The notes beneath the pieces are model-generated. The model did no database searches, was not told where the DNA came from, and saw nothing but the letters and a program-made list of their open reading frames with translations. A DNA stretch of 62,964 bases from the NCBI GenBank assembly GCA_002705265.1, contig PAHR01000001.1:1-62964 (forward strand), read 5' to 3'. The stretch's first letter is position 1. Each line of letters opens with the position of its first letter. A program made the translations under genes and the position numbers. This document shows, in pieces, positions 7,229-55,151 of the stretch. The DNA comes from Pelagibacteraceae bacterium. Lineage in GTDB: Bacteria > Pseudomonadota > Alphaproteobacteria > HIMB59.

Positions 7229-8105
7229 TAAAATTGTACTAGGGACTGCCCAAATAGATGGCAATTATGGTGTGGCAAGAGAAAATTCAATTTTTGATAT
7301 TAAGAAAATTCTTAAAATTTGTAAAACTGAAAACATTTTATTTTTAGACACTTCTCAAAAATATAACAATGCTCACAACATATTAAGTAACTATGTTAAA
7401 AAAGATTTTAATATAATTACAAAAATTTCATTTGCAGATATTAAAAATGAATATTTAAATAAGGAAATTGTTAAAAGAAAATTAGAAGAAGTTTTTATTT
7501 CTTTAAAACAAAATCAAATAAATTCAATTTTATTGCATGATACCAATATCCTCAAAACAAAATATGCAGATTATTTAATTGAAGAATTAAATATTTTAAA
7601 AAAAAATAATAAAATTAAATATTTTGGTATATCAATTTATGAACTTGAAGAGTTAGAGTCATTTTATGATTTAGGGTTTGACATAATCCAAGGCCCTTTA
7701 AATATTTTAGACAGAAGAATTATTGATTCAGGGTGGCTTGAAAAAATTCATCTTGATCAAAAAGAATTTCATGCCAGGTCAATTTTTCTCCAAGGTCTAC
7801 TTTCTCAAGATAAAAAACAAAATATACCTATAAAATTTCATAAATGGGAAAAATTTTGGAATGATTGGTTCTCCTGGCATAGAAATAATAATATAAAGCC
7901 AATTCAATCTTGCTTATCATATGCTTTGAATAATGAATCAGTAGCCAAAACAATAATTGGAGTTGATAATGAGGAACAATTAAATAACTTAATTAATATA
8001 TGTAAAAACAAATTACTTGATATTAATATGTTGAAGGATTTAATGAAAAAAACTATAAACGATGAATACTTAATAAATCCAAAAAATTGGAAAACATTTA
8101 AATGA
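7218..8105 (+). CDS. aldo/keto reductase family protein
   Basis: NKIVLGTAQIDGNYGV, LDTSQKYNNAHN, LHDTNIL, FGISIYELEEL; TTG start overlapping pseC. Confidence 0.8.
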
Positions 8106-36405: not shown

Positions 36406-36948
36406 ATGAATAATCAATATTTCAGTCAATATATTGAAGTTATAAAAGATAAGTTTTTATCGATTGATGAAAAAATTTTATCAGATATTAAAAAACAACT
36501 CTTAATTGTAAAAAATAATAATAGTAAAGTTATAATAGTTGGAAATGGAGGCAGTGCAGCAATAGCTAATCATGTCAGCATAGACTTAATGAAAACAGCC
36601 AATATTCGATCCTTAACATTTAGTGACCCAAGTTTAATTACATGCTTTGCGAATGATTATGGTTATGAGAATTGGGTTGCTAAAGCAATAGAACACCATC
36701 ATCATCAAAATGATTTAATTATTCTTATTAGTAGTAGTGGAAAGTCTATGAATTTAGTAAATGCTGCTTCTAAGTCAAAAGAGCTAGGGTTGAATTTAAT
36801 AACTTTAACTGGATTTATTAAAAATAATTCTTTGAGCAAAATGGGAGACATAAATTTGTGGATTGATAGTAATAGCTATAACGTTATCGAAAATGTTCAT
36901 CAAATTGCTCTATTATCTGTACTAGATTTTATTATTAGTGAAAAATAA
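36406..36948 (+). CDS. SIS-domain sugar isomerase, GmhA-like phosphoheptose isomerase
   Basis: VIIVGNGGSAAIANHVSIDLMKT; LISSSGKSMNLVNAA; C-terminal ENVHQIALLSVLD. Confidence 0.85.
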   Translation: MNNQYFSQYIEVIKDKFLSIDEKILSDIKKQLLIVKNNNSKVIIVGNGGSAAIANHVSIDLMKTANIRSLTFSDPSLITCFANDYGYENWVAKAIEHHHHQNDLIILISSSGKSMNLVNAASKSKELGLNLITLTGFIKNNSLSKMGDINLWIDSNSYNVIENVHQIALLSVLDFIISEK

Positions 36949-36960
36949 TTCATATCAAAA

Positions 36961-37752
36961 ATGAAAGCAATACTACTAGCTGCTGGATTAGGTACTAGAC
37001 TAAAGCCCTTAACGGATAATTGGCCAAAATGTCTTATGCCTATAAATAAAAAACCTTTATTGGAATATTGGCTAGATAGCTTGATCAAATCAGGCGTAAA
37101 GGAAATTTTAATAAACCTTCATTATTTTCCAAAAATTGTAGAAAGTTTTGTAAAAAATTCTTTATATAAAGATCATGTAATATTTTCAGAAGAAAAAGAG
37201 CTACTTGGTACGGCGGGTACCATTGTTAAAAATAAAAAGTTTATTACAAACTCAAAAATTTTATTAATTCATGCAGATAATTTATGCATATGTAGTTTGA
37301 AAAAATTTATTGATTTCCATGATAACTTAAGACCAAAAGAAACAAAAATTACAATGATGACATTTAATACAAAAAAGCCAAAAGATTCTGGAATTGTGGT
37401 TTGTAATAACAAAGGAATCGTTCAGTCATTTTATGAGAAAAGTGAAAAAGACTATGGGGATTTAGCAAATGCTGCTGTTTACATGATTGAACCTTCAGTA
37501 TTGAATTGGATTGTAGAAAACAATTTGAAAGATTTTAGTACTGAAGTATTGCCAAATTTTATGAATAGAATTTCAACATGGCATAATAATAAAGTCTTAA
37601 GGGATATTGGAAGTTTAGAAGAATTATTAAAAGCCCAATATGATGTAGAACCACATAAAGATAATAATAGCTATTACTCTTGGGAGTATAATGATAATTT
37701 TATTAAAATTTGTGAGAAAGTTGATCAATTAATAACTAATGAAAAAAAATAA
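36961..37752 (+). CDS. nucleotidyltransferase, HddC/RfbA-type sugar-phosphate NTase
   Basis: AILLAAGLGTRLKPLTDNWPKCLMPINKKPLLEYW, LLGTAGTI. Confidence 0.88.
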   Translation: MKAILLAAGLGTRLKPLTDNWPKCLMPINKKPLLEYWLDSLIKSGVKEILINLHYFPKIVESFVKNSLYKDHVIFSEEKELLGTAGTIVKNKKFITNSKILLIHADNLCICSLKKFIDFHDNLRPKETKITMMTFNTKKPKDSGIVVCNNKGIVQSFYEKSEKDYGDLANAAVYMIEPSVLNWIVENNLKDFSTEVLPNFMNRISTWHNNKVLRDIGSLEELLKAQYDVEPHKDNNSYYSWEYNDNFIKICEKVDQLITNEKK

Positions 37753-38743
37753 AAAAACTTTTTTGGTGATTGGTAGTAACTCATTTTCTGGATCTGCTTT
37801 TATTTATCATTTGTTAAAACGAAAATATAATGTAATTGGAGTTAGTAGATCAAAGGAGTTATTACCTATATTTCTGCGTTACAAGAATTTAAAAAATGAA
37901 CAAAGATTATTTAAGTTCTTCCAAATTGATTTAAATAAAAATTGTAAAAAACTGATTAATTTAATTAAAAAATATAAGCCAAGCTATATTATAAATTTGG
38001 CAGCTCAAAGTATGGTCGCTGAAAGTTGGGATCATCCTGAACATTGGTACCAAACTAATGTTTTTGCACAAATTCAACTTTGTGAAGAAATAAATAAATT
38101 AAATTTTATTAAAAAATATGTTCATGTTACAACACCTGAAGTATATGGAAGTAGTAAAAATAAAATAAAAGAAAATTTTAATTTTAATCCATCAACCCCA
38201 TATGCAGTTTCAAGAGCTTGTTGTGATTTACATTTAAGAAATATGTGGAAGTTATATAATTTCCCTGTTGTTTTTACTAGAGCAGCTAATGTCTATGGCC
38301 CATGTCAACAATTATACAGAATTATTCCTAGAGCATTATTATATGCTCGAAAAAATAAACAATTAATGTTACATGGTGGAGGTAAGTCTATTAGATCTTT
38401 CATTCATATCGATGATGTTGCTGAAGCTACAATATCTATAGCTTTAGAAGCTAAAATAGGAAAGACTTATCATATTTCTACCAATAATTTTATATCTATT
38501 AAAGAACTTACAAAAAAAATATCATTTCTAACAAATAAAAATTTTTCTGATTTTGTTAATGTTGCCTCTGAAAGAAGTGGAAAAGACCATGCTTATCTAT
38601 TAGATAGTTCTTCTCTTAGAAAAGAATTAAATTGGAGAGATAAAGTTTCTTTAGATTTTGGCCTTAAACAAACGCTAGAGTGGGTTGATTCAAATTTATC
38701 AAAATTATCTAAAAGTAATCAATTTTATGTTCATAAAAAATAA
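37739..38743 (+). CDS. NDP-sugar 4,6-dehydratase-like SDR
   Basis: FLVIGSNSFSGSAFIYHLL, NLAAQSMVAESWDHPEHWYQTNV, TTPEVYGSS, TPYAVSRACCDL. Confidence 0.85.
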   Translation: MKKNKKTFLVIGSNSFSGSAFIYHLLKRKYNVIGVSRSKELLPIFLRYKNLKNEQRLFKFFQIDLNKNCKKLINLIKKYKPSYIINLAAQSMVAESWDHPEHWYQTNVFAQIQLCEEINKLNFIKKYVHVTTPEVYGSSKNKIKENFNFNPSTPYAVSRACCDLHLRNMWKLYNFPVVFTRAANVYGPCQQLYRIIPRALLYARKNKQLMLHGGGKSIRSFIHIDDVAEATISIALEAKIGKTYHISTNNFISIKELTKKISFLTNKNFSDFVNVASERSGKDHAYLLDSSSLRKELNWRDKVSLDFGLKQTLEWVDSNLSKLSKSNQFYVHKK

Positions 38744-38757
38744 GGAGATATGAATAA

Positions 38758-39699
38758 ATGAATATTTTAATTACAGGAGGGTGCGGATTTGTTGGCTCTG
38801 CTCTTATTAAGGATCTTTTGGCCCAAGGTCATAGTATTACAAATATTGACACCCAATGGTTTGGTATTAATTTAGAAGATCATAGAAAATTAATTAATAT
38901 TAAATCAGATATAAGGAATATAGAGGGAATTGATTTTCAGGGATTTGAAGCAGTAGTCCACCTTGCTAATATAGCTAATGACCCTGGTGTTGAGCTCAAT
39001 CAAAATCTTTCATGGGAAGTTAATGTTCTCGCTGGTAAAAAACTCATAGAACAGGCAATTAAAAATAATATTAAAAAGTTTATATATGCAAGTTCAGGAA
39101 GTGTTTATGGCATTAAAGACGAAAAAGATGTAACTGAAGATTTAGATCTAGTTCCAATATCTACATATAACAAAACTAAAATGGTGGCTGAGAGACTTTT
39201 TCTAAGTTACTCATCACAAATAGACTTTTATGCATTAAGGCCTGCTACGGTTTGTGGACTATCACCTAGAATGAGATTAGATGTCAGTGTAAACTTACTT
39301 ACTTATCAAGCACTTTCTAAAGGAAAAATATCTTTATTTGGTGGGTCTCAAATACGTCCAAATATTCATATAAAAGATATGGTTAATGCTTATAAACATT
39401 TATTATTTAATAATGTAAAACCAGATATTTATAATGCTGGATTTGAAAATTATTCACTTAGAGAAATATCTGAAATGATACAAAAAAAAACAAATTGTAG
39501 CATTGAAGTCACGAATAACAATGATCCAAGGTCTTACAGGCAGAATTCTGACAAAATCATTTCCACTGGATTTGAAAAAAAATATTCAGTTCAAGATGCC
39601 ATAAACGAAATAGTTGAAGCTTATAATAAAAAACAAATAATAGACAAAGATATTTATTATACAGTTAAATGGATGAAAAAACTGGGCTTAAATAACTAG
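38758..39699 (+). CDS. NAD-dependent epimerase/dehydratase
   Basis: ILITGGCGFVGSALIKDLL, YASSGSVYG, YNKTKMVAE; GGAGATATGAATAA upstream of ATG. Confidence 0.88.
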   Translation: MNILITGGCGFVGSALIKDLLAQGHSITNIDTQWFGINLEDHRKLINIKSDIRNIEGIDFQGFEAVVHLANIANDPGVELNQNLSWEVNVLAGKKLIEQAIKNNIKKFIYASSGSVYGIKDEKDVTEDLDLVPISTYNKTKMVAERLFLSYSSQIDFYALRPATVCGLSPRMRLDVSVNLLTYQALSKGKISLFGGSQIRPNIHIKDMVNAYKHLLFNNVKPDIYNAGFENYSLREISEMIQKKTNCSIEVTNNNDPRSYRQNSDKIISTGFEKKYSVQDAINEIVEAYNKKQIIDKDIYYTVKWMKKLGLNN

Positions 39700-40728
39700 T
39701 CAATCATTTAAACATTTTATTATAGGTCTTAAGTTAAGACCCTTTTTTAAATCATTTATAGCAATATTAATGTCTTTAAGCTTATAAATTTTTTTTGCTA
39801 AAGGATTTATTAAATTACGAGAATTGATAGTAATTTTTTTTAAATCATTCATATTTTTATCTAAATTCATCCAACCACCCCATGATCCAACTATATTTTT
39901 ACCTTTTATTAAATCATGTGGGTCTAAAGATATCTTATCATTGTGATTTGGATGAGATGAGAATACTAGCAATCCATCATCTTTAAGTAATTTAAAAGCA
40001 TTCTCTATTGTTTTTTTTAATCCAGCAGACTCAAAAATAAAATCATATTTTTTATCATTAATTTTAGAGATTTTTGTATAGAAATTATTTCTATGATTTT
40101 TTTCAATATATTTTTTTTTACTAGCATTTGTGTCAAAAATAATAATATTATTTTTCTTAAAATAATTTTTTAAAGCTAAGTAAGAAAAAAAACCAACTCC
40201 GCCTAAGCCATAAATTAATATATTTTTATTTTTTATAGATTTGATTTTTTTAATTACTGGACCAGCGCCAGTTGGTATAGCGCATCCAAATAGAGAAGCC
40301 TCTTTAAAATTAATGAATTTTGGTTTTTTAAAAACTCTATTTTCTGAAACAATTGAAAATTCAGAAAAAGTAGTTATAAATCCAGAATTTATTTTTTCAC
40401 CTTTATTATTTTCGTAAAAATCTATTTTACTATCTAATCCCTTGCCTTTTATCCAAGAAAGAATAACTTGATCTCCTTTTTTTACTTTTTTTACACTTGG
40501 TCCAATGTCATAAACTTCACCAGAAGCTTCATGACCAAGCATGTGTGGGATCCATTTTTTATTATTACGCTCCCCAGCTATTTCCATTAACTGACTTCTA
40601 CAAATACTGGTATAATGTATTTTTACTAATACTTGCCCTTTATTTATTTTTGGAAATTTTATATTTTCAATACTTAATGGTTGGTTAATTTTTCTTAAAA
40701 TTGCAGCTTTAAAATATTTTTTTTCCAT
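39700..40728 (-). CDS. zinc-dependent alcohol dehydrogenase family (MDR)
   Basis: IHYTSICRSQLMEIAGERNNKKWIPHMLGHEASGEVYDIG; GLGGVGFFSYLALK. Confidence 0.85.
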   Translation of the reverse strand: MEKKYFKAAILRKINQPLSIENIKFPKINKGQVLVKIHYTSICRSQLMEIAGERNNKKWIPHMLGHEASGEVYDIGPSVKKVKKGDQVILSWIKGKGLDSKIDFYENNKGEKINSGFITTFSEFSIVSENRVFKKPKFINFKEASLFGCAIPTGAGPVIKKIKSIKNKNILIYGLGGVGFFSYLALKNYFKKNNIIIFDTNASKKKYIEKNHRNNFYTKISKINDKKYDFIFESAGLKKTIENAFKLLKDDGLLVFSSHPNHNDKISLDPHDLIKGKNIVGSWGGWMNLDKNMNDLKKITINSRNLINPLAKKIYKLKDINIAINDLKKGLNLRPIIKCLND

Positions 40729-40733
40729 TTTCT

Positions 40734-41801
40734 TTATCCTTTAATACCAATGATTTTATTTGCCTCTTCAATAATACCATTTGTATCACCATTCCAGTAA
40801 ATTTTATGATTTTTGCAAAGAAATTTATAGTTTTCTCCAACAGTTTGACCAATATCATTAAAAAATTTCTTACTTAAATTTGGCATGTGATCATGGGTTT
40901 TAAGGTGAGTTACCGATGCAGAATTTTTGTTTAATTGAGATGCTGCTGCTGTCCCTGAATGTGGAAAAAAATTTACTTTTGCTATTTCGTAAATAGCAAT
41001 TCTATAATTCATTATTAGTGCACATTCTTCTAAAAAAGCAAATTGGCTTAGTTTTTGTCTATGACTTTCATCATTAATATTATCTGTGTCAGGAATGATA
41101 TAAACCTTATAATTAAGTTTTTTGTAATATTCAGCTATCTTTAACCAAAATTCTATATCGCTATCTCTTTCCTTTTCATAGTTATAACTTCTCAAAGTAA
41201 TTGTGATTACTTTGTTTAAGTCTGTTGAATTATCAATTGTTTTTAATTTAAGCTTAATTTCTTCAATAATATTTTTTTTAATTTTTATGCCATCATAATC
41301 CTCACATTTATTTAAATATTTGAATAAATATTTATAATTGAAATAAGATATTTTGTTTGAAAAATTATATGAAAAAAAAATACCATCATTAAATTTTTTA
41401 ATATCTTTTATATCTTCAAAGAATATTGCTTCTAAGCAGTTATCAAAACTTTAACTTAAAGGTATAAGCATAGATTTAATTCTATTATTTAATTGTGATA
41501 CAGAAAGAGGAAACCAATTTTTATAATCTTTTCTTTTTCTTTTTATAATGATTACTCTAAACATTATATTGTTTTTTTTTGCAAATTTATCTACTTGTAG
41601 CATGGCGAATGCAAAATCAAAAGTAGGAGACTCAAAATTTAAATCATACAAAACATTTATTTCTAAAGTATTTTTATCTATATTGGTGTTATAATTAGAA
41701 AAAAAAAAGTCTTTAAAATTTCTTACAAATTTTGTTTGAGGGTATTTTAATTCACTTAACGATCTTAATATAAAGTTAACAAGTGTGTATTGTCTAATCA
41801 T
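40734..41801 (-). pseudogene. degraded gene of unknown function: one in-frame stop plus one frameshift
   Basis: Reverse strand: ...MLIPLS*SFDNCLEAIFFEDIKDIKKFNDGIFF then frameshift at the T9 tract (A9 at 41372-41380), restored frame SYNFSNKISYFNYKYLFKYLNKCEDYDGIKIKKN...VITITLRSYNYEKERDSDIEFW into ORF 40734..41195. Confidence 0.75.
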
Positions 41802-41829
41802 ATTTTCCTAAAAAACATTATCAAATAAT

Positions 41830-43521
41830 TTAGTATGGCCACATTTCATTAAGAGGAAGTGGATAATTTTTTTTGCCAATATGATATTTTTGTCTAAAAA
41901 GCTCTCCTTGATTTTCTTGAACAACCAATTCACAAATTATTGGTTTATTGAATGTAGTTAATTTTTTAATACCTTTTTGTATATCTTTGGTTTTGTCAAT
42001 TTTTATAAAATCAAAACCAAATCCTTTAGCAACGTTACCTATATTTGGCATCTTTAAAGACCATTTAGGGTGAGTGCCATAGTACTTATTTTTTAAAAAA
42101 CCTTGCTGGGTTTGCCTAATAGCTAAGTAGCCGTTGTTATTAACAACTATAATTACCGCTGGTATATTTTCTGACTTAATTGTTTGTAAATCTTGAATAT
42201 TCATTAAAAAACTTCCGTCTCCAATGATGCAATATAGTTTTTTAAAAAGATTAGATTTATAAGCTCCGATAGTTTCTGCTAGTCCAGTTCCCATAGCTGA
42301 CATTCCAGAAGAACATATTACTCTTTGATTTGATTTTATACTTAAGCTTTGAAATCCTGTATAAAGGGCTGTTCCACCACCATCAACAATAAAACAGCTT
42401 TTCATGGGTGACTGGCTTGTAAGTTTGTAATAAAAGATATTTGAATTAGGTTTTATATTTGATTTTGGCATATACCAGTTTAATTTTTTAAAATTTTTTG
42501 TATCTTTAGAATTTTTACTAGTAAGATTCTTGAAAACAAAAAAAAACTTTTCAAGCGATTCATTAAACTTATAATCAAATTTAATACTAAGGTTATTGAG
42601 TTGGTCAGGATCAATATTAATTATAGCCTTTTTGCTTTTTGGAGCATATTCTTTTGTTAAAGTAGTTGTATGAGGAATACTTAAATGAGTGCCAAGACAC
42701 AAAATAAAATCAGAATCAAATACAGCTTTATTGGCTCCTCTTTGGCCTCTCATGCCAATAATACCTAAATTATTTTTATAATTTGTAGGTAAATAGTCAG
42801 CAGCAGTCCATGTCGTAACGAAATTAAATTTTTTATTTTTAATAATTTTAAGATAATCTTTTAATTTGCCAGAAAGTCTAAGTCCATAACCAAGTATTAA
42901 AAGAGGATTTTTTGAAAGATTAAATTCTTTAGAAAATTTTGAATAATTATTTTTTGTTTTATTTTTATTTAAATTTTTAAAACTATAATTTTTAGGTTCT
43001 TTAATTAACTCCCATTGTAAATTCAGTGGAATATCAATCCAAACTGGCCCTGGTCTTCCACTGATCGCAATTTCGTATGATTCCTTAAGAATACAATAAA
43101 ATTTATTTTTATCGTTTACAAAAGTAGCTTTTTTAGCAATTGGTTTAACAATATCAACAATTTTTGATTCTTGAGTTCCAATCTGCCTTACTTTTTTTCC
43201 ATAAGAAACATGATCTGTTCTAACTTGCCCAGAAATAAAGATACAGGGTATAGAATCTTGCCAAGCAGCTAGTAATCCTGTAATAGCATTTGTTCCTCCT
43301 GGCCCAGAAGTAACAACTACTAGGGAAGGTTTTGATGTTAGTTTAGAACAAGCAACTCCAGCAAGGGCAGAAGATTCCTCATGATGATTGTAAGTAACAT
43401 CTATTTTATACTTCTCAAGAGAGTCAAATATATGTGCAACAGCACCCCCTTGAAGTCCGAAAGCTTTTTTATTCCCATTTACTTTAAAAAACTTTGCAAG
43501 GCAGTCTGTAAGTTTAATCAT
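41830..43521 (-). CDS. thiamine-diphosphate-dependent enzyme, acetolactate synthase-like
   Basis: GLQGGAVAHIFDSL, NHHEESSALAGVA (catalytic Glu), VTSGPGGTNAITGLLAAWQDS, GDGSFLMNIQDLQTI; start set at MIKLTDCLAKF, downstream of the track start, to avoid overlap with the SDR. Confidence 0.9.
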   Translation of the reverse strand: MIKLTDCLAKFFKVNGNKKAFGLQGGAVAHIFDSLEKYKIDVTYNHHEESSALAGVACSKLTSKPSLVVVTSGPGGTNAITGLLAAWQDSIPCIFISGQVRTDHVSYGKKVRQIGTQESKIVDIVKPIAKKATFVNDKNKFYCILKESYEIAISGRPGPVWIDIPLNLQWELIKEPKNYSFKNLNKNKTKNNYSKFSKEFNLSKNPLLILGYGLRLSGKLKDYLKIIKNKKFNFVTTWTAADYLPTNYKNNLGIIGMRGQRGANKAVFDSDFILCLGTHLSIPHTTTLTKEYAPKSKKAIINIDPDQLNNLSIKFDYKFNESLEKFFFVFKNLTSKNSKDTKNFKKLNWYMPKSNIKPNSNIFYYKLTSQSPMKSCFIVDGGGTALYTGFQSLSIKSNQRVICSSGMSAMGTGLAETIGAYKSNLFKKLYCIIGDGSFLMNIQDLQTIKSENIPAVIIVVNNNGYLAIRQTQQGFLKNKYYGTHPKWSLKMPNIGNVAKGFGFDFIKIDKTKDIQKGIKKLTTFNKPIICELVVQENQGELFRQKYHIGKKNYPLPLNEMWPY

Positions 43522-43525
43522 TTTT

Positions 43526-44314
43526 TTAAGTAAGATAATTATGATACATAAAATGCCTTGATTGACCAGCATCAACAGGAACTATAGCTCCATGAGAAAA
43601 AGATGCTAATTCAGAACAGTAAAATAAAACTACAGGAGAAATTTCATCGACTTCAGCAAATCTTCCTAACGGACTTCTTTCTCTTAAATATTTTTCTGCA
43701 TGCGCAGGGTTATCTTTTAAAACTTTATCCCAATGTCCGCCTTTAGTTAAAGTTACTCCTGGAAAAATTGCGCTCATAACAACATTGTTACATTCTGTTG
43801 CTAATATTCTTCCCATCGTTCTTGTATAAGCAGTTAAAGCTGCTTTTGAAACTGTATAAGTAACCGGTCCACTATTTTCTAGTCCAGCACAAGAAGTTAT
43901 ATTAACTATTCTACCCCAATCTTGATTCTTCATATAATCAACAACATGATTAGTAATTTGAACATGTACTTCAAAATTCAAATTCATAATTTTTCTCCAA
44001 TCCTCAATTTCACAATAAGGATTTGTGATATTTAAGTTATGACCAGCATTATTTACCAAAATATCAATTTCTTTATTCGATAATTGTTCTTTAAAATTTA
44101 AAAACCAATCTTCATCAAAAAAATCTAGTAAAATTCCTTCAACACTTATTGGGAGTTTAGATAGTTTTTCTTTTAATAAATCTATTGACTCTTTTTTTCT
44201 CGATGTGACTAAAAGATTAACACCTTCTTTTGCAAGTAGTTCAGAAATTGACTCGCCGATCCCATTACAACCGCCTGTAACTAAAGCAGTTTTTCCTTTA
44301 ATTCCTAAATCCAT
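43526..44314 (-). CDS. SDR-family oxidoreductase
   Basis: ALVTGGCNGIGESISELLAKEG, LVNNAGHN, YTVSKAALTAY. Confidence 0.92.
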   Translation of the reverse strand: MDLGIKGKTALVTGGCNGIGESISELLAKEGVNLLVTSRKKESIDLLKEKLSKLPISVEGILLDFFDEDWFLNFKEQLSNKEIDILVNNAGHNLNITNPYCEIEDWRKIMNLNFEVHVQITNHVVDYMKNQDWGRIVNITSCAGLENSGPVTYTVSKAALTAYTRTMGRILATECNNVVMSAIFPGVTLTKGGHWDKVLKDNPAHAEKYLRERSPLGRFAEVDEISPVVLFYCSELASFSHGAIVPVDAGQSRHFMYHNYLT

Positions 44315-44316
44315 GA

Positions 44317-45474
44317 TTAATTAATTAATATAGGATTTATAATATTTTTGATACCTAATTTACTCAACTTGTTATAAATGTTTCTGTTTGAAATCTTAGT
44401 ACTTACAGAAGTAATGATAATATTTGAATTTTTTTTCATATTATCTATTGATACAATTTGAGCATTAATATTAGGAAATTTTTTATTAAATTTTTCAGTA
44501 TTTTCCTCAAAAATAAAATCTAAATTTTTTATAAATGGTAAATTATATGCCAAAGTAGGGACCATTAGCCCAGCACCAAATCCACTAAAATCAATTTGCA
44601 AATTAGATAAAGTATCATTTAATTTTCCATAGTAGTTATAAAAATCCTCATATGCATTTTTAAATATTTCTTTATCTATATTTACAAATGATAATTGCTT
44701 TGCTTCAGAGGATTTTTTACAAAAAACTCTTAAAGTACCGTAAAGTGACTCATCATACTCAAAATTTTTAATATTTAAGCCATATTTTTTTAATATAAGG
44801 CTTATAGATTTGAGTGAAAAAAGATTTAAATGTTGATGGGTAATTTGATCGAATCTTAAATATTCTATTTGTTTTTCAATAGATGGAAATTGCAAAAAAC
44901 ATTGATCATCATCTTTCATTGCAGCAGATATTTTTGAAATTAGATCATTTGGGTCCTCTAGATGTTCAATAGTATGACTACTACATATAATTTTAGAGTC
45001 ATTTTTGAATTCAATTAAATCCATATCATCAAAAAAGGATTTAATTAAAATTACATTTTCCGGTCCAGAAGCATTGGGGTCGATATTAATTAATTTAGTA
45101 TCTTTAAGATTATATAGTTTAAAAAAAGTTGAGTCATTTCCACCAATATCAATAAAAGATGAAAAATTTTCAAAATTTGTATTAGAGTTTATAAATTTAG
45201 AAAAATTCTCTAGACAATTAATTGCACCAGCACTAGCTGAAGTAGTTGTCCAGTAATTTTGATATACATATCTAATATCAAGAATTTTTTTTAAATAGGC
45301 ATGATTACATTTCACACAAAACTGGTAAATTTGATCCTCGAAGAATTGTTTCTCATCGTGATTTTTTGATGTTTCAAGAAATATCTCTGTAATAGGGTAT
45401 TTTGGAAGATTTATGTCTTCTGTCTCTTTACCATTACAAACTATGCACTTTTCTTGAATTTTATGTTTAATCAT
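44317..45474 (-). CDS. sugar C-methyltransferase-like SAM enzyme with N-terminal zinc-binding motif (NovU/TylC3-like)
   Basis: CIVCNG...FCVKCNHAYL Cys pairs; FIDIGGNDSTFFKLY; SSHTIEHLEDP; QITHQHLNLFSLKS. Confidence 0.8.
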   Translation of the reverse strand: MIKHKIQEKCIVCNGKETEDINLPKYPITEIFLETSKNHDEKQFFEDQIYQFCVKCNHAYLKKILDIRYVYQNYWTTTSASAGAINCLENFSKFINSNTNFENFSSFIDIGGNDSTFFKLYNLKDTKLINIDPNASGPENVILIKSFFDDMDLIEFKNDSKIICSSHTIEHLEDPNDLISKISAAMKDDDQCFLQFPSIEKQIEYLRFDQITHQHLNLFSLKSISLILKKYGLNIKNFEYDESLYGTLRVFCKKSSEAKQLSFVNIDKEIFKNAYEDFYNYYGKLNDTLSNLQIDFSGFGAGLMVPTLAYNLPFIKNLDFIFEENTEKFNKKFPNINAQIVSIDNMKKNSNIIITSVSTKISNRNIYNKLSKLGIKNIINPILIN

Positions 45475-46646
45475 AAATACTCCTTTAATAATATAAATTT
45501 TTTTAATTCTGCTATACCCAATTTAATTGTATTAGATGAAGTAGCAAAAGAAAATCTTATATATCCTCTTCCATTTCTTCCAAAAAATGATCCTGGACAT
45601 GTAGCTACACCTCTTTTTTTTAATAATTTTTTTGAAAATTTTACATCATCAATGGCGAGTTTTTTTATATTTACAAATATATAAAAAGCTCCATTTGGTT
45701 TTAAACAACTGATGTTTTCAATTTTACTAATTAACTTAAATATCAAATCCCTTTTTTCCTTTAAGTCTTCAACTATATTTTTTATTTCGAGTTGACTTGA
45801 ATTTAAAGCTTTTATTGCAGCTATTTGAATAAAAGGAGATACACAGGAAGTGGTTGTCTCCAATAATAATTGCATTTTTTCAACTAATTTCGATGGAGCA
45901 GTGATTGCACCTATTCTCCAACCAGTCATAGCGTAGGATTTACTTAAGGAATGAACAACTATAGTTGTTGTTTTACATTTGTCTAAAACACTGGGTGAAA
46001 AGAATCGAGATTTTTCGTAAACCAATCTCCCATATACCTCATCACTTATTAAAAAGATTTTATTTTTTTTTGCAATTTTAAATATGTTTGTAATATTTTC
46101 TTTAGTCAGTAAAGAGCCAGTTGGGTTATTAGGTGAATTAATAATGATAGCTTTTGTCTTTTTTGAAATTTTGTCTTTCAGCTCACTTAAATTAACTTGA
46201 AAATTATTTTTTTCGCTTAAATTATAAAAAATAGGTTTCAAATTAAGCATTTTAATTATAGATAAATAAGAAACAAAAGAAGGATCTGAAATTAAAATTT
46301 CATCTCCAGCATCAGCTATACAATATAAAGAATAAAATATTTGAACGTTAGCACCTTGAGTAACTAAAATTTGGTTTAAATTAGGTTCAAATTTTCTAGA
46401 TAATTTGAATCTTTTAACAGCCGCTTTTTTAAATTTTTCTAACCCCCCAGATCCACTATAATGAGTTATTCCATCTCTCAGAGATTTAATACAACTGTCA
46501 ACAACTTTTTTTGGAGTATCGTAACTTGGATCGCCTATTTCAAAATGATATATTTTTTTTCCTTTTAATTTTAATTTATTTGCCTCATCAAGAATCTGAA
46601 ACATTTGTTGACCCATCAATCTATTGGAATTTTTAGAAAGCATCAT
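45471..46646 (-). CDS. class I/II PLP aminotransferase
   Basis: HFEIGDPSYDTP, ITHYSGSGGLEKFK, INSPNNPTGSLL, HSLSKSYAMTGWRIG. Confidence 0.9.
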   Translation of the reverse strand: MMLSKNSNRLMGQQMFQILDEANKLKLKGKKIYHFEIGDPSYDTPKKVVDSCIKSLRDGITHYSGSGGLEKFKKAAVKRFKLSRKFEPNLNQILVTQGANVQIFYSLYCIADAGDEILISDPSFVSYLSIIKMLNLKPIFYNLSEKNNFQVNLSELKDKISKKTKAIIINSPNNPTGSLLTKENITNIFKIAKKNKIFLISDEVYGRLVYEKSRFFSPSVLDKCKTTTIVVHSLSKSYAMTGWRIGAITAPSKLVEKMQLLLETTTSCVSPFIQIAAIKALNSSQLEIKNIVEDLKEKRDLIFKLISKIENISCLKPNGAFYIFVNIKKLAIDDVKFSKKLLKKRGVATCPGSFFGRNGRGYIRFSFATSSNTIKLGIAELKKFILLKEYL

Positions 46647-46654
46647 GAATTTTT

Positions 46655-47710
46655 TTAAAAAGGACCTTTAAAAGTTTTATTTGGTATATCATGTTTTTCA
46701 TCTTTATTATTAATAAAACTATAACTACCTTTAAATTTTAACATTTGTAAAACTTTCTTAACTATAACTTTATAATCATTGTAATATTCTTTTGTCATAT
46801 AATAGCTTGTTGGTTCAGGGATGTTTGGCATTCCAATTATCTCAGGTTTATTTTTTAGCTTAAAAGTGTTTAATGAAGAGTGTGTAATAATAGCAGAACT
46901 AACAGAAAATAACTCTGTTCCAGTATCAACACAAAGAATTGAACCAGTCTTGTTAACGGATTTATTTATTGTATTAAAATCTATTGGTCTAATAGTTCTT
47001 AAATCTACAATTTCTATTTCAATTCCTAGTTTTTTTAAAAAGATACCTGCTTTAATTGCCTCTAAAGTCATATAAGACATTGTACATACAGTAATATCCT
47101 TACCTTTTTTGATAACTTTACTTTTACCTAATTGGTTTTTTTTATAATTATTGTCGTACTTTCCCTCTGCAAAATGTAACCATCGATGCTCTAGAAATAT
47201 AACTGGATCAGGATCAAAGATAGAGCTATACAATAAATTTTTACCGTCATTAGGTGTTGAGGGAATTACTACTTTAAGACCAGGTATTTGCGCAAATAAA
47301 CTATTCAAATTTTGAGAATGAGTTGGGCCTTGACCCCAACCTCTACCTATAATTAGTCTAATACATATTGGTATATTAATTTTACCACCAAACATATAAT
47401 GATACTTTGCTGCTCCATTTATAATTTGATCGAGACTTAGTAAGGCAAAATCTAATCTTTGATGAGTTAAAACAGGAATAAAACCATTCATTGATGCTCC
47501 AATAGCAAATCCAGTTATGGCATTTTCTGAAGCAGGTATGTCAAAAACTCTTGAGTCTCCAAATTTTTTTTTAAGCCCTGTAGTTGTTCCAAAAATTCCC
47601 TTAGGATCCGTAGCGCCAAGCCCAAAGCAAATTACTTTTTTATTACTTAACATTGCTTTGCTTAAAGTATTATTAATGAGTTTAGCGAATGAAGCAGTTT
47701 TCTTAATCAT
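46655..47710 (-). CDS. pyruvate/2-oxoacid dehydrogenase E1 beta-like (transketolase-type) subunit
   Basis: FDIPASENAITGFAIGASMNGFIPVLTHQRLDFALLSLDQIINGAAKY; VIPSTPNDGKNLLYSSI. Confidence 0.9.
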   Translation of the reverse strand: MIKKTASFAKLINNTLSKAMLSNKKVICFGLGATDPKGIFGTTTGLKKKFGDSRVFDIPASENAITGFAIGASMNGFIPVLTHQRLDFALLSLDQIINGAAKYHYMFGGKINIPICIRLIIGRGWGQGPTHSQNLNSLFAQIPGLKVVIPSTPNDGKNLLYSSIFDPDPVIFLEHRWLHFAEGKYDNNYKKNQLGKSKVIKKGKDITVCTMSYMTLEAIKAGIFLKKLGIEIEIVDLRTIRPIDFNTINKSVNKTGSILCVDTGTELFSVSSAIITHSSLNTFKLKNKPEIIGMPNIPEPTSYYMTKEYYNDYKVIVKKVLQMLKFKGSYSFINNKDEKHDIPNKTFKGPF

Positions 47711-48693
47711 ATCTGTTTATAATATTCATTTTTGTATGCTTGAGATTTAATATTTTTTTCAGATCTTCTTGCTTTTGTAAAAGCATTATCTATAGATACA
47801 TAATTATTTTTTTCTATTCTTTGAATTTTTAGCATACCTCCATTAATTTTTTTGGATAGAAAATTTTTCATTTTAATTAATGGATCTTTACTTATCATAG
47901 TATTTGTAATTTTTTTATTTCTATAGTTAAGATCATCATCATAATTCGGTCCACAATGCTCCCTCCATCTGTAATTTGAAAATTCTAAAAAATAAGGTTT
48001 TTTAAATTTTTTAATGTATTTAATTGCATTATCAAAAGATTTATAGATTTGATCAATATTATTACCATCACAATATGAAGATTTAACACCAATTGATTGT
48101 GCTAATTTGTATATTTTTCTTCTATCTGGTTGTCTAACTTTTAACGAAGAGTAGACTGAATATTGGTTATTTTCACAAACAAATAATGTCGGAATGCTTT
48201 TTACCGCTGCAAAATTTAGCGACTCATAAAAAACACCTTCTTCAGTAGCGCCATCACCCAAAAACACAATACTTATATTTTTTGTTTTTTTGTTTTTAAA
48301 TTTATAACCTAATCCTAAACCAACTGGGATACTATTGCCAACTATAGCCGAAGATCCCATAAATCCTGCTTTAGTATCTATTAAATGCATAGAACCTCCT
48401 TTGCCTTTTGAGCAACCAAAACTTTTTCCATACAGCTCTGCAACAAAATCATTTAATGACCCACCTTTTGCTATGTAATGAGCGTGTGCTCTATGTGTGC
48501 TAACGCATAAATCTTTTTTATCTAAAAATAAAGATAAAACTGAAGGAACCGCTTCTTGCCCAATTGATAAGTGAGTTGGGCATCTAATTTCTTGCTTAGG
48601 GTACTCTGCTACTATTCTTTCTTCTGTTGCCCTTATAAGATGCATCATTGAAAATATTTTATATAATTTTTTTATGTCTATGGAATAAACCAA
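47707..48693 (-). CDS. pyruvate/2-oxoacid dehydrogenase E1 alpha-like subunit
   Basis: THRAHAHYIAKGG; GKGGSMHL; GDGATEEGVFYESLNFAAVKSIPTLFVCENNQYS. Confidence 0.92.
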   Translation of the reverse strand: MVYSIDIKKLYKIFSMMHLIRATEERIVAEYPKQEIRCPTHLSIGQEAVPSVLSLFLDKKDLCVSTHRAHAHYIAKGGSLNDFVAELYGKSFGCSKGKGGSMHLIDTKAGFMGSSAIVGNSIPVGLGLGYKFKNKKTKNISIVFLGDGATEEGVFYESLNFAAVKSIPTLFVCENNQYSVYSSLKVRQPDRRKIYKLAQSIGVKSSYCDGNNIDQIYKSFDNAIKYIKKFKKPYFLEFSNYRWREHCGPNYDDDLNYRNKKITNTMISKDPLIKMKNFLSKKINGGMLKIQRIEKNNYVSIDNAFTKARRSEKNIKSQAYKNEYYKQI

Positions 48694-49331
48694 TAATAAT
48701 CCCCATTAAAATTGTTTGATTTAAAAAAATCAATCCAGTCCTCAACTGACATTATAGTTTTAGCTGTCAAATTCCATTTCATCATTCTTTCTTTTTCTTC
48801 GTTATTCCTGTAAGCATCAACAGTAATAAATGAATTTTTCTTAGTAACCCTTTCTATTTCTTTTAGAGATATACCACAGTCTTTTAATTCCAAGTTATGA
48901 ATTGTATTAATCGAAATAACTAGATCAAAAGTATTGTCTTCAAAAGGTAGTGACTTAGCATCACCAACTATTAAATTTTCTCTTACTTCTTCCTTTGAGT
49001 TTTCAATAGCATATCGAGAAATATCTAATCCTTTTAAAATAAAATTATTGTTATACTGTTTAAAATCAAAAAGCATAAAACCCTTAGCGCATCCTACATC
49101 AAGTATTTTTGACCCATTTTTTAAATTATAGAAATTAACAAAATCTGGAATTACATTTTCCCAAAATTTTGAGTTATAAGCAAAACCACCATAACCGTGT
49201 TTTCGATCTCCATCAAAAAATTCTTTACCAAATTTTCTTGCTATGGCCCTAACTTCTGATGTTGTTCCCATAGATCTTTCGTCAAGATTTCTTTTAGATT
49301 TAGGGTAATTTTTTAAAAGATCAATTTCCAT
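48678..49331 (-). CDS. class I SAM-dependent methyltransferase
   Basis: ILDVGCAKGFMLFDF; LPFEDNTFDLVISINTIHNL. Confidence 0.85.
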   Translation of the reverse strand: MEIDLLKNYPKSKRNLDERSMGTTSEVRAIARKFGKEFFDGDRKHGYGGFAYNSKFWENVIPDFVNFYNLKNGSKILDVGCAKGFMLFDFKQYNNNFILKGLDISRYAIENSKEEVRENLIVGDAKSLPFEDNTFDLVISINTIHNLELKDCGISLKEIERVTKKNSFITVDAYRNNEEKERMMKWNLTAKTIMSVEDWIDFFKSNNFNGDYYWFIP

Positions 49332-49461: not shown

Positions 49462-50871
49462 ATGATATCTTTTATATCCGGCAATTTTCAAATTATTCAT
49501 TCAGGGCATCTTAGGTTATTTAAATTTGCAAGACAATTTTCTGACAAACTGGTGGTAGGTATATATGCTGATAAAAATATTTATAGTAATAAAAAAGCCC
49601 TAAGTTCAAGTATTAAAGTTTTAAAAAATAGTCCGTATGTAGATGAAGTTGTTACTATAAGAGGTAATATAATTAAAGTTCTTAGTCAAATTAAACCAAA
49701 TTTTATAGTAAAAGGATATGAACATTCAACAAAAAAAAATATTGAAGATAAATATGTTAGTATTAATAAAAATAAATGTAAGTTAATATTTAGTTCTGGT
49801 GTTTTAGAAAATTTAGAAAATACTAATTCAACAAATGTAAATAATGATCTAAAAATAAAACATGATCATTCTTTTATAAAAAAAAATAAATTATCTCAAA
49901 AAAACCTTAATAAAATAATTGATAATTTTAATAAGTTAAGGGTTTGCGTTATTGGTGAAATTATAGAAGATAAATATGAAGAATATTCAGTTTTGGGACT
50001 TTCTCAAGAAGATCCTACTGTTGTTTTAAGTTCCATTGGTAACTCTTCTTATGTTGGTGGCGCAGCTATAGTAGCATCTCATGCAAGCGGGTTAGGTTCA
50101 AAAACATCATTAATAAGCTTATACAATAAAATGGATGATAGTAATTTTTTAAAAAAATTACTTGATTATAAAGTAGAAACCATATTATTTGATGACAACA
50201 CTCGAAAAAATATTAAGAAAAAAAGATTGAGAGCTGAAGGTAAGACTCTACTTAGAATTAATGAAGTCAATAACCATTTTATTAATAAAAAAATAGAGAA
50301 TGAAATAGTTAAGTCTTTTTCCTTACTTTCCAAGCAAATTGATGTTCTAATTTTTTCTGATTTTAATTATGGGCTATTGCCTAAATCTTTAATTAAAAAA
50401 ATAATTAAAATTGCTAGACAAAAAAAAATATTTGTTGCAGTAGATAGTCAAATATCATCTCAATTCGGTGATATCACAAGATATCAAAATATAGATTTTT
50501 TATCGCTAACTGAACACGAAGTTAGAAAATCTATTAATAATGAATATGATGGCTTAATTGAAATTATGAATAAATTACAAAAAAAAGTTAATACAAAATA
50601 CTTTAATCTTAAGCTCGGTGCAGCAGGTTCCATAATATACGATTTTAAAAACTATAATTCTGCAACTCTAAATTCATTAAACAAAAATCCCTTAGATATA
50701 TCTGGAGCAGGGGACTCAATGTTAGTTGTAGCTAGTTTAGCTTTAGCGAGTGGCTCTAATCCAAGTGAAGCTGCATATTTAGGAGCTTTATCAGCGGCTT
50801 TGCAAATTTCTAGAACTGGCAATATACCCTTAGATTTGAAATTATTAAAAAAAGTTTTAAAAAATATTTAA
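49462..50871 (+). CDS. HldE/RfaE-like bifunctional protein with inverted domain order: N-terminal cytidylyltransferase-like, C-terminal PfkB-type kinase
   Basis: N-term SGNFQIIHSGHLRLFKFAR (HxGH); C-term RVCVIGEIIEDKYEE...GGAAIVASHASGLG...NPLDISGAGDSMLVVASLAL. Confidence 0.88.
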   Translation: MISFISGNFQIIHSGHLRLFKFARQFSDKLVVGIYADKNIYSNKKALSSSIKVLKNSPYVDEVVTIRGNIIKVLSQIKPNFIVKGYEHSTKKNIEDKYVSINKNKCKLIFSSGVLENLENTNSTNVNNDLKIKHDHSFIKKNKLSQKNLNKIIDNFNKLRVCVIGEIIEDKYEEYSVLGLSQEDPTVVLSSIGNSSYVGGAAIVASHASGLGSKTSLISLYNKMDDSNFLKKLLDYKVETILFDDNTRKNIKKKRLRAEGKTLLRINEVNNHFINKKIENEIVKSFSLLSKQIDVLIFSDFNYGLLPKSLIKKIIKIARQKKIFVAVDSQISSQFGDITRYQNIDFLSLTEHEVRKSINNEYDGLIEIMNKLQKKVNTKYFNLKLGAAGSIIYDFKNYNSATLNSLNKNPLDISGAGDSMLVVASLALASGSNPSEAAYLGALSAALQISRTGNIPLDLKLLKKVLKNI

Positions 50872-52728: not shown

Positions 52729-53941
52729 TAAATTTCTATACATAAGTTATGACGGTCTACATGATAATTTAGGCCACTCACAAATAATTCCTTATATAAA
52801 AATTATTAACAAAAATCTAAATAATAAATTTTATGTAATATCTTTTGAAAAAAAAAAAAATATAAATAAAACAGACGATTTATTTAAAGATTATAATATA
52901 GAATGGATTAAATTAAGTTTTACAAAAAATATTTTCCCTCTTATTAAAATATTAGATTTAATAAAATTAATTTCTAAATCAATTTACATTGTATATAAAT
53001 ATAAAATACAAATAGTTCATTGTCGCGGTCACGTTTCAGCATTATCTGGTTTAATTTGCAAATTAATATTTAAAACAAAATTTATTTTTGATTGTAGAAG
53101 TTTTTGGGTTGATGAAAGATTTGATGATGGTAAATGGAATAAAAGCAAGTATGTAAATAAAATTGCTTATTTTTTTTTTAAATATTTAGAAAAAAAATTT
53201 TTTAAAAATAGTGATCATAATATTATTCTAACAAATAAAGCAAAAGAATATTTGATATCAAATAAATCTTGTGATCCTAATTTAATTTCTGTAATACCTT
53301 GTTGTGCTGATTATGATAAATTTAATATTTCTGACTCAGATTCAATTGATAAAATTAAAAATCAATACGGCATAAATAAAAACGATATTGTTTTTGGTTA
53401 TTTTGGATCTTTATCACCCCTATATATGACAGATAAGATGATTAATTTTTTCAAAACATTTAAGAAATCTTTTAAAAATTCAAAATTTATGGTTTTTACT
53501 GACAATAATGATTTCTTTAATAGCAACATTGATTTAAAAAAATTTTTACTGGAAAAAAGCTTAATAGTTAAGACTTTAAACAAAGAGGAAATACCTAGTC
53601 ATTACAATATATGTAATTTTACTCTCAGTTTTATATCTAATAGTAAAGCGAGGATAGCTACTTCACCAACTAAAATAGCAGAATCTTTGGCTTGTGGCAT
53701 ACCCGTGATTTGTAACCAAAATATTGGAGACTTAGATAGCTTTATATCAAAATATTATGATTTTGGATTAATTAACGCTAATAATGATAATAATTTTCAT
53801 ACTGTAATTAGTAATATTCAATACATTATTTCTTTATCTAAGGATAAAATTAGAAATCTTTCAAAATTAGATTTAGATTTAAATATAGCCAAAAAAAAAT
53901 ACATTCATGTTTATAAAAGTTTAATTAATGAAAAAGACTAA
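52724..53941 (+). CDS. glycosyltransferase (GT4-like), probable ATT start; ORF track shows only the C-terminal part (53252..53941)
   Basis: Uninterrupted frame from 52724: (I)NKFLYISYDGLHDNLGHSQIIPYIKIINKNLNNKFYVISFEKKKNINKTDD...IQIVHCRGHVSALSGLICKLIFKTKFIFDCRSFWVDERFDDGKWNKSKYVNKIAYFFFKYLEKKF...; AGAGGA 7 nt before ATT; overlaps ABC stop codon. Confidence 0.85.
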   Translation: MNKFLYISYDGLHDNLGHSQIIPYIKIINKNLNNKFYVISFEKKKNINKTDDLFKDYNIEWIKLSFTKNIFPLIKILDLIKLISKSIYIVYKYKIQIVHCRGHVSALSGLICKLIFKTKFIFDCRSFWVDERFDDGKWNKSKYVNKIAYFFFKYLEKKFFKNSDHNIILTNKAKEYLISNKSCDPNLISVIPCCADYDKFNISDSDSIDKIKNQYGINKNDIVFGYFGSLSPLYMTDKMINFFKTFKKSFKNSKFMVFTDNNDFFNSNIDLKKFLLEKSLIVKTLNKEEIPSHYNICNFTLSFISNSKARIATSPTKIAESLACGIPVICNQNIGDLDSFISKYYDFGLINANNDNNFHTVISNIQYIISLSKDKIRNLSKLDLDLNIAKKKYIHVYKSLINEKD

Positions 53942-55151
53942 TGTTGTAATTTTTAATGGAGGTAGAGGTGCTTCAACTATTATTAAAAATTTAATTTCCT
54001 ATAATCATATAAACCTAACATCTATAGTAAATGCCTATGATGATGGAAAATCAACTGGTGAAATAAGAGATTTTTTTAAAATGTTAGGTCCCTCAGATAT
54101 TAGAAAAGTTCAAAAAATTATGATACCTAAAAATATTAAGGATTATAATTCATTAATTAAAATTTTTGATTATCGTTTTAAAAAAAATGTTAAAAGAAAA
54201 TTATTAATTAATGATTTAAATTCTTTTGCAAATGGATCAAAATTTATTACAAAAAATGTTACTTCAAGTAATGTTAAAATAATTAAAAATCTTCAAAAAT
54301 TTACTGGAATATTTTTAAATGAACTTTCTAAATCTGAGTCAATTAAAAGTAAATTGTTTAATTTTAATGATTGTTCTTTTATGAATTGCATATATGTGGG
54401 TGCTTATTTTTCATTTAATAAAGATCTTGAAAAAGCAATTAATCATATTTCTAAGCTTTTTAATGTGAAGGGTAAAGTATTACTTAATAGTAATGTAAAC
54501 AAAAAACTAGTAGCAATAAGAGAGGATGGAAAAGTCTTAGCAAGTGAAGCTCAAATAGTTGAACTTCGTTCAAATGTTAGATTAGAGCAAATCTATTTAT
54601 TAAATAAATATCCTAATTCTAATGATTTTAAAAACATCAATATTAAAAAGAAAAAAGAGATTTTAAATAGAAGAAGTAAAATAATTAATGCTAGTGCTCA
54701 AGTTATTAAAGCTATTAATCAAAGTAATATAATAATTTATGCTGCTGGCACCCAGCATTCATCTTTATTACCAACTTATTTTTCTAAGGGAATATCTAGC
54801 TCTATAGCAAGAAATAAAAGAGCTATGAAAATTTTTATTACTAATATTGGTGCTGATTTTGAAAATCCCTGTTATATAGCTTCTGAATACTTAAAAAATG
54901 CTTATCGTTATCTTAATCAATCAATAAAGAAAAAATATAAATATAGTGAGTTATTTAGCCAGGTATTTATTAATAATCCATCCCAAGATACAAAAAATAA
55001 TTATGTGAAATATGATAAAGATGGCTTCACTAATATTAACACAAATTTAGTTGTAAAGAAATTTGAGTTGTCAAATAAACCAGGTTTTCATAATGGCAAA
55101 AAAATTGTTGATCAAATATTTTATATGTACAAAAAATTTAAAATTTTATGA
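53928..55151 (+). CDS. YvcK/CofD-like (UPF0052) family protein
   Basis: VVIFNGGRGASTIIKNLISYNHINLTSIVNAYDDGKSTGEIRDFFKMLGPSDIRKVQ; AGTQHSSLLPTYFSKGISSSIARNKRAMKIFITNIGAD. Confidence 0.8.
   Translation: MKKTNVVIFNGGRGASTIIKNLISYNHINLTSIVNAYDDGKSTGEIRDFFKMLGPSDIRKVQKIMIPKNIKDYNSLIKIFDYRFKKNVKRKLLINDLNSFANGSKFITKNVTSSNVKIIKNLQKFTGIFLNELSKSESIKSKLFNFNDCSFMNCIYVGAYFSFNKDLEKAINHISKLFNVKGKVLLNSNVNKKLVAIREDGKVLASEAQIVELRSNVRLEQIYLLNKYPNSNDFKNINIKKKKEILNRRSKIINASAQVIKAINQSNIIIYAAGTQHSSLLPTYFSKGISSSIARNKRAMKIFITNIGADFENPCYIASEYLKNAYRYLNQSIKKKYKYSELFSQVFINNPSQDTKNNYVKYDKDGFTNINTNLVVKKFELSNKPGFHNGKKIVDQIFYMYKKFKIL

Follow-up and report, generated by a model that had tools for sequence, protein, structure and literature searches.

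The 62,964-nucleotide contig PAHR01000001.1 of a Pelagibacteraceae bacterium (assembly GCA_002705265.1), referred to here as the window, probably encodes the synthesis of a branched higher-carbon sugar destined for a cell-surface polysaccharide, by a route in which an activated heptose would be joined to a two-carbon unit borne by an E1-alpha/E1-beta pair dependent on thiamine diphosphate (ThDP). A preliminary description had singled out a minus-strand block of 9.6 kb (39700-49331) with eight named genes as a cassette, a candidate pathway for a branched or chain-extended sugar. All eight genes are intact at that place, with plus-strand genes on either side, and housekeeping identity is excluded for each of the three ThDP genes among them. 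The block is nevertheless too narrow to represent the full system. The unit extends over ~36.4-50.9 kb and includes the plus-strand genes on both sides, which encode a GmhA-like isomerase, an HddC-like nucleotidyltransferase, two sugar-nucleotide short-chain dehydrogenases (SDRs) and a heptose-kinase fusion. It is a variant of a module spread across phyla, the core of which lies partly outside the block, rather than a self-contained cassette peculiar to this island. The observation in the preliminary description is thus confirmed, and its interpretation is partly supported. The Pfam E-values of the block genes (1e-8 to 1e-68) and the recurrence of the gene set across phyla exclude a chance origin.

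The pathway steps are proposed on the basis of homology and of gene order. A nucleotide-activated heptose would be generated by the GmhA-like isomerase together with the kinase and nucleotidyltransferase proteins (49462, 36961), and a Cj1427-like SDR (38758) would convert it, with a divergent SDR of the dehydratase family (37739), into a keto-heptose, the ketone probably being at C4. The E1 pair would decarboxylate pyruvate and pass the ThDP-bound two-carbon unit to this ketone and not to a lipoyl domain. The resulting tertiary alcohol would carry an acetyl branch (C7+C2), making it a 4-C-acetyl-heptose; this product is predicted by applying to E1 the C4-addition logic of bradyrhizose, described below. 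A methyltransferase and a zinc-dependent alcohol dehydrogenase (Zn-ADH) would then modify the branched heptose, and the accessory set in the window (YerE-like enzyme, SDR, C-methyltransferase and aminotransferase) may introduce another carbon branch as well as a C-methyl group. The end product would enter the surface polysaccharide. In photosynthetic Bradyrhizobium, bradyrhizose would be made on the common backbone, the two-carbon unit coming from a split transketolase.

Conservation of the module across genomes

The preliminary description had suggested looking for the same gene set elsewhere. GTDB genomes were scanned with an E1-beta alignment, and the best 80 of at least 473 relatives were kept as loci. 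These come from ~18 phyla, and most carry the same core set of GmhA, HddC, two SDRs, methyltransferase, E1-alpha/beta, Zn-ADH and heptose kinase. Since the loci were picked by E1-beta only, the neighbouring genes are independent evidence. Several loci stem from metagenome bins, so that claims about single phyla (e.g. one archaeal bin) are weak. Neighbours were scored by gene calls and tblastn, with 52 loci longer than 17 kb (hereafter long loci) and 62 longer than 14 kb. All eight partner genes occur together in 22 loci, and the order methyltransferase, E1-alpha, E1-beta is found in 56 of the 80.

The E1 pair differs from pyruvate dehydrogenase

The E1-alpha-like subunit (47707-48693, minus strand; E1_dh 3.9e-57) lies directly upstream of the E1-beta-like subunit (46655-47710, minus strand) in nearly all loci and is itself directly preceded by a core member of the module, an S-adenosylmethionine-dependent methyltransferase gene (48678-49331, minus strand; 44 of the 52 long loci). 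The catalytic-type residues H67, H70, H72, N176 and H246 of E1-alpha are invariant across 75 sequences, and E62 and H131 of E1-beta are kept in at least 93%. Neither subunit passes the curated cut-off, with 259.7 bits against 393.9 for E1-alpha and 239.3 against 321 for E1-beta. The host genus encodes a lipoyl-fused E1-beta of pyruvate dehydrogenase (PDH; 459-471 aa) and a separate 327-aa E1-beta, each sharing ~34-40% identity with the window protein. The other E1-beta group, at 47-55% identity with one outlier at 40%, comprises the window gene, the genome's own copy on another contig and copies in six relatives. A tree made with a quick method and containing some long branches splits the housekeeping E1-beta proteins (clade support 99%) from this special set. 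Window-type E1-beta has a GRGWGQGP motif where housekeeping E1-beta has NGAAARVGAQ-type loops, and it ends in FKGPF after a ~24-residue extension that the 327-aa E1-beta of the genus does not have. In view of the separate clade, the distinct motifs and the genus's own PDH, housekeeping PDH identity is rejected for the window E1, in agreement with the preliminary description. As that description also noted, E2/E3 genes are absent among the window open reading frames (ORFs) scanned. Lipoyl domains were not detected in the window or in the 80 related loci by a search in which the positive controls scored 1e-22 to 1e-48.

A role of the E1 pair in supplying acyl units for N- or O-acylation of the sugar, with borrowed housekeeping E2/E3, is quite unlikely. 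PDH E1 is the closest among the NCBIfam models and the host genome has its own PDH operon start, but the distinct clade, the invariant motifs, the C-terminal extension and the lack of lipoyl domains all argue against such a role, and acyl supply leaves unexplained why transketolase stands in the place of E1 in the bradyrhizose operon. The arrangement at the window, with adjacent E1-alpha and E1-beta genes beside nucleotide-sugar genes and no E2/E3, is that of the alphaKADH2 sugar-branching enzymes, and we favour a role as sugar carboligase.

A second special E1 pair in the host genome (G000:C46; L060:3398-6951) adjoins another cytidylyltransferase-PfkB fusion and no 37739-type gene. A plasmid search for E1-type relatives gave two annotated module-like copies and one pair on the Streptomyces griseofuscus plasmid pSGRIFU1 (L163, 10986-13032). 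The latter shares motifs with the window E1 (GRGWGQG and FAGPY) but sits on a long branch of unsure place in the tree; its neighbours, a condensation-domain gene and regulators of the butyrolactone type, do not clearly mark a sugar cluster. Among viral contigs there was no confirmable E1-beta relative; matches in the phage collection are ~30-39% identical to E1-beta and mostly unannotated records.

A probable heptose backbone

Homologues of the enzymes that make a 4-keto GDP-heptose (isomerase, kinase, nucleotidyltransferase and C4-dehydrogenase) are present together at the window, and the best matches carry a heptose signature (gmhA, rfaE_dom_I, 4e84, 6vo6). The SIS-domain isomerase of the sedoheptulose-7-phosphate isomerase family (36406-36948, plus strand; SIS_2; 44 of the 52 long loci) has TIGR00441 gmhA as its top NCBIfam model, at 80 bits against a cut-off of 209. 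The HddC-like sugar-1-phosphate nucleotidyltransferase (36961-37752, plus strand; NTP_transferase; 29 of 52) reaches 93 bits with the HddC model, which has a cut-off of 300 and is not its top-scoring model. The cytidylyltransferase-PfkB fusion (49462-50871, plus strand; 37 of 52), in which the domain order is the reverse of that in HldE, resembles heptose-7-phosphate kinases, scoring 151 bits with rfaE_dom_I (cut-off 345) and matching the D-beta-D-heptose 7-phosphate kinase 4e84. A Zn-ADH (39700-40728, minus strand; ADH_N 4.9e-17), with a homologue in the bradyrhizose operon, is present in 41 of 52.

The SDR at 38758-39699 (plus strand; 46 of 52) is related to Cj1427-type GDP-heptose C4-dehydrogenases. 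Its closest solved structure is 6vo6 (1.3e-29), which we take to be Cj1427, and Y137 and K141 are conserved. Homologues of lhgO, encoding L-2-hydroxyglutarate oxidase, adjoin six of the 80 loci and one further locus (L164), as expected if C4 oxidation turns 2-oxoglutarate into L-2-hydroxyglutarate. Cj1427 oxidises GDP-heptose at C4 with 2-oxoglutarate, yielding L-2-hydroxyglutarate (PMC10680097). The divergent RmlB-type SDR (37739-38743, plus strand; 47 of 52) is a homologue of Bradyrhizobium 'gdh'. In this family the position of the catalytic Lys is occupied by R in 45, H in 11 and K in 6 of 62 sequences, TPE replaces the TDE of orthodox dehydratases with loss of the Asp, and the glycine motif is GxNSFxG.

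Four of 52 genomes of the genus carry the 37739-type gene, and all four also have the special E1-beta (p=1.3e-4). Of 289 class genomes, 14 contain the GRGWGQGP codon pattern, four the 37739-type gene and three both (p=3.6e-4), two of these three coincidences being the window and its genus-mate. The fourth class genome with a 37739-type gene (L173) has a bradyrhizose-type set of transketolase, Zn-ADH, HAD, APH and methyltransferase genes instead. Most other motif-bearing loci of the class hold a heptose-kinase fusion, a methyltransferase or GmhA, often with two DegT genes, and no close 37739-type gene, so the E1 family is wider than the exact module; one pattern match without an E1 gene (L176) is due to chance.

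Genetic link to bradyrhizose

Disruption of gdh (BRAO285v1_100023) in an 11-gene cluster of Bradyrhizobium ORS285 abolishes its bradyrhizose O-antigen; the same paper states that the genes for bradyrhizose synthesis are unknown and cautions that the disruption may have polar effects (PMC4743980). The cores of the published gdh primers translate to DAFLPYK and DMSLRTYF and were located at corresponding sites in the 37739-type genes of the module, typically 378-381 bp apart. In a genome from the family of Rhodopseudomonas both primers match exactly (23/23 and 24/24) at the 37739-type homologue. This locus begins with the heptose-kinase fusion, HddC, the 38758-type SDR, GmhA and the 37739-type SDR (gdh itself), and continues with transketolase N, transketolase C, Zn-ADH, an HAD-like protein, assigned from an FDFDNT-like motif and with no Pfam match, an APH kinase and a methyltransferase that is a 39% homologue of the window protein at 48678. 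The same 11-gene run is present in three relatives. From the primers, we take this genome to belong to the species of the published strain. The heptose backbone that it has in common with the window is tied by genetics to bradyrhizose, a ten-carbon bicyclic sugar. The window does not itself hold a bradyrhizose-type operon: the backbone is there, but with an E1 pair and no transketolase N subunit.

The structure of bradyrhizose is consistent with such a route. Its rings form through OH-4, OH-5 or OH-9 (PMC9912281). For a pyranose to close through O-9, C9 must be attached to C4; OH-4 on that carbon renders it a tertiary carbinol, as expected from ThDP-dependent addition of a two-carbon unit (C9-C8) to a 4-keto-heptose. 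The inositol-like ring would next be closed by bonding C7 to C8, and the remaining carbon would be left for the methyltransferase. Caryose, a 4,8-cyclo-3,9-dideoxy-nonose (PMC9026286), has a name compatible with a C7+C2 product and is possibly another product of this chemistry. We suggest tentatively, as a possibility rather than an expectation, that adding a ThDP-borne two-carbon unit to the C4 ketone of a heptose is a general way of building higher-carbon and carbocyclic surface sugars in bacteria, the donor role being filled by E1, transketolase or YerE-like enzymes, interchangeably or in combination. Bradyrhizose (C10, by transketolase) and possibly caryose (C9) would be among its products, along with numerous nonoses and decoses yet to be seen in environmental bacteria such as Prochlorococcus and SAR11-like lineages.

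Alternative acceptors

Several observations weigh against a pathway from heptose and an E1-borne two-carbon unit. The activation enzymes all miss the NCBIfam equivalog cut-offs (gmhA, HddC and rfaE_dom_I), so heptose is a putative substrate, and no 7-phosphatase is evident for the pathway. The 37739 family is without the catalytic Lys of orthodox dehydratases in 56 of 62 sequences, so that its part in making the keto-heptose is putative. The bradyrhizose operon has no E1, and the genetic anchor therefore covers the backbone and not the E1 step. Acceptors may also vary, since some E1 pairs have no close 37739-type gene near them and are often accompanied by two DegT aminotransferases. Finally, the pathway may be inactive in this genome, in which one cluster gene is interrupted or misassembled.

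The E1 pair could accordingly be a sugar carboligase that, like AviB1/B2 and Pau11/12, acts on a hexose, a pentose or an amino sugar, with the heptose-like genes acting elsewhere. Known E1-type branching enzymes do take keto-pentoses and deoxyhexoses (PMC10338323, PMC4802897, PMC12247030), and the E1 loci with DegT pairs fit such a role. We nevertheless judge this unlikely, as the isomerase, the heptose-kinase fusion and the Cj1427-like SDR are co-conserved with E1 across phyla, and we retain heptose as the probable acceptor.

The YerE-like carboligase and other accessory genes

The third ThDP protein of the window (41830-43575, minus strand) has an acetolactate synthase (ALS) fold. Its homology starts at residue 19, and the likely start is an internal ATG at ~43521, with which the overlap with the SDR gene at 43526-44314 disappears. 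It scores 270.6 bits against the acolac_lg equivalog cut-off of 538. The genus IlvB is a separate 590-aa protein, ~30% identical to the window protein, with matches in 43 of 52 genomes (window counted); it was not found in the draft assembly of the window, presumably owing to incompleteness. The best PDB match of the ALS-like protein is JanthE (8rph; 213 bits vs 189 for the next), a YerE-like ketone-coupling enzyme (PMC12188165). JanthE falls inside a 34-row clade with the window protein (99% support in the Shimodaira-Hasegawa-like approximate likelihood ratio test), and the genus IlvB falls outside. IlvB identity, a doubt attached to the preliminary description, is rejected on the basis of this tree position, the separate genus IlvB and a score about half of the cut-off. 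Identity as a phosphonopyruvate decarboxylase was likewise rejected, because the protein has all three domains. Its clade suggests a YerE-like carboligase, predicted to decarboxylate a 2-oxo acid and couple it to a keto-sugar.

The accessory genes vary between loci: among the 62 loci longer than 14 kb, 26 have ALS alone, 15 two DegT genes, four a split transketolase, one both ALS and transketolase, and 16 none of these. This bears on the analogy drawn in the preliminary description, in which the minus-strand block alone would be the pathway, with ALS and E1 acting on a YerE-type 3,6-dideoxy keto-sugar. The analogy holds for the enzyme family, as the grouping with JanthE indicates. It does not extend to the acceptor: a 3,6-dideoxyhexose is unlikely because the module has genes for heptose activation and a protein related to a heptose C4-dehydrogenase, and no 3,6-dideoxyhexose gene set was recognised among the window ORFs scanned. 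With an E1 core lacking all three accessory types in those 16 loci, and with the plus-strand flanks as the most constant partners, the minus-strand block as the whole pathway is extremely improbable.

The remaining accessory genes are also on the minus strand. The SDR at 43526-44314 has homologues of 63-64% identity in a Methylophilaceae genome (L073) and in L133. The NovU/TylC3-type C-methyltransferase (44317-45474; Methyltransf_23) has the sugar C-methyltransferases 4rv9 (2.9e-11) and TcaB9 as its closest solved relatives. The class-I (aspartate-type) aminotransferase (45471-46646; Aminotran_1_2 2.1e-68; 1dju/1gd9 ~1e-70) has a 51% homologue near an ALS homologue in L073, where the window set partly recurs (aminotransferase 51%, SDR 63%, ALS 51%). 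As ErwE favours 4-hydroxy-2-oxo acids (PMC12247030), it may be speculated that the aminotransferase possibly supplies the 2-oxo-acid donor of the YerE-like enzyme.

The interrupted glycosyltransferase-like gene and the surrounding island

A ninth gene in the minus-strand block (40737-41801) forms a single frame broken by one TAA (41451-41453). An intact 353-aa homologue is present in a sister genome, uncultured Alphaproteobacteria bacterium AG-918-C13 (L056:1036-2097). The AlphaFold model of its product (mean predicted local distance difference test score 71.5) matches 3tov and WaaF 1psw with E ~1e-6 and a template modelling score of ~0.5. This GT-B fold, closest to GT9 heptosyltransferases, again points to heptose. 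L056 and L109 are one contig of the sister genome (G043), and their gene order is identical. The in-frame stop could mean that the cassette is a decaying remnant, no longer functional in this genome. We consider this very unlikely, since the other 13 genes are open, the E1 pair keeps its conserved catalytic residues and the lone stop may be a consensus error in the draft assembly (1.34 Mb in 54 contigs, 87.7% complete).

The surrounding island, up to ~57 kb, is devoted to surface-glycan biosynthesis, with NeuB, DegT, GMD, glycosyltransferases, Wzy_C/EpsG and ATP-binding cassette export. Two NeuB-family genes (8102-9160 and 15365-16489) indicate that, in addition to the heptose module, it encodes one or more pathways for nonulosonic acids. 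A CofD-domain protein (53928-55151) sits amid the glycosyltransferase genes.

Comparison with known systems

The preliminary description regarded the system as undescribed. This does not hold for the chemistry of the E1 pair, which has precedents in AviB1/B2, Pau11/12 and KbDH; the pathways to avilamycin, everninomicin, paulomycin, aldgamycin and kibdelomycin have known or proposed E1-like pairs that branch sugars (PMC12247030, PMC4425429, PMC4802897). A review assigns E1-type sugar branching to specialised metabolites and YerE-type branching to lipopolysaccharide (LPS) (PMC12247030; see also PMC4753412). In the open-access literature, we found no paper on E1 pairs in O-antigen, surface-glycan or heptose clusters, and none on bradyrhizose enzymes or on bradyrhizose with transketolase. 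As far as searched, the heptose module with E1 in surface-polysaccharide islands is thus undescribed there. The type of chemistry is known; the acceptor backbone and the setting are new, and the distribution is far wider than described. The recovered content of the bradyrhizose operon and the backbone common to E1 modules in ~18 phyla together provide a concrete, testable pathway. The module points to E1-type branching as a common feature of surface glycans in environmental bacteria, abundant plankton included, where such sugars could shape recognition by phages and grazers.

Closest in gene content is the bradyrhizose operon, which like the window has homologues of the heptose-kinase fusion, HddC, the Cj1427-like SDR, GmhA, the 37739-type SDR, Zn-ADH and the methyltransferase, a ThDP carboligase in mid-cluster and a surface polysaccharide as destination. 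It differs in having split transketolase for E1 and extra HAD-like and APH-kinase genes, and no YerE-like enzyme was seen in it. The alphaKADH2 pairs (AviB1/AviB2, Pau11/Pau12 (Plm8/Plm9), EvdU5/EvdS3 and KbDH-alpha/beta) resemble the window in being heterodimeric E1-like pairs without E2/E3 beside sugar-nucleotide genes. For the AviB, Pau and KbDH pairs this likeness is one of gene arrangement; the pSGRIFU1 pair is alike in its GRGWGQG motif and FxGP C-terminus. In contrast to the window, with its heptose genes and surface-glycan island, the alphaKADH2 pairs serve actinomycete secondary metabolites and use pentose or deoxyhexose acceptors. YerE, ErwE and JanthE are YerE-like carboligases of the decarboxylase family from LPS pathways, and JanthE is the nearest solved structure to the window ALS-like protein, in a joint clade apart from IlvB. 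The window protein differs in being distant in sequence and accessory to an E1 pair, with no 3,6-dideoxyhexose set recognised nearby. The GDP-heptose pathways of Campylobacter jejuni (PMC10680097) likewise combine an isomerase, a kinase and a nucleotidyltransferase with oxidation of the activated heptose at C4. In Campylobacter the resulting 4-ketone undergoes epimerisation and reduction, whereas in the window it is expected to receive additional carbon through a ThDP enzyme.

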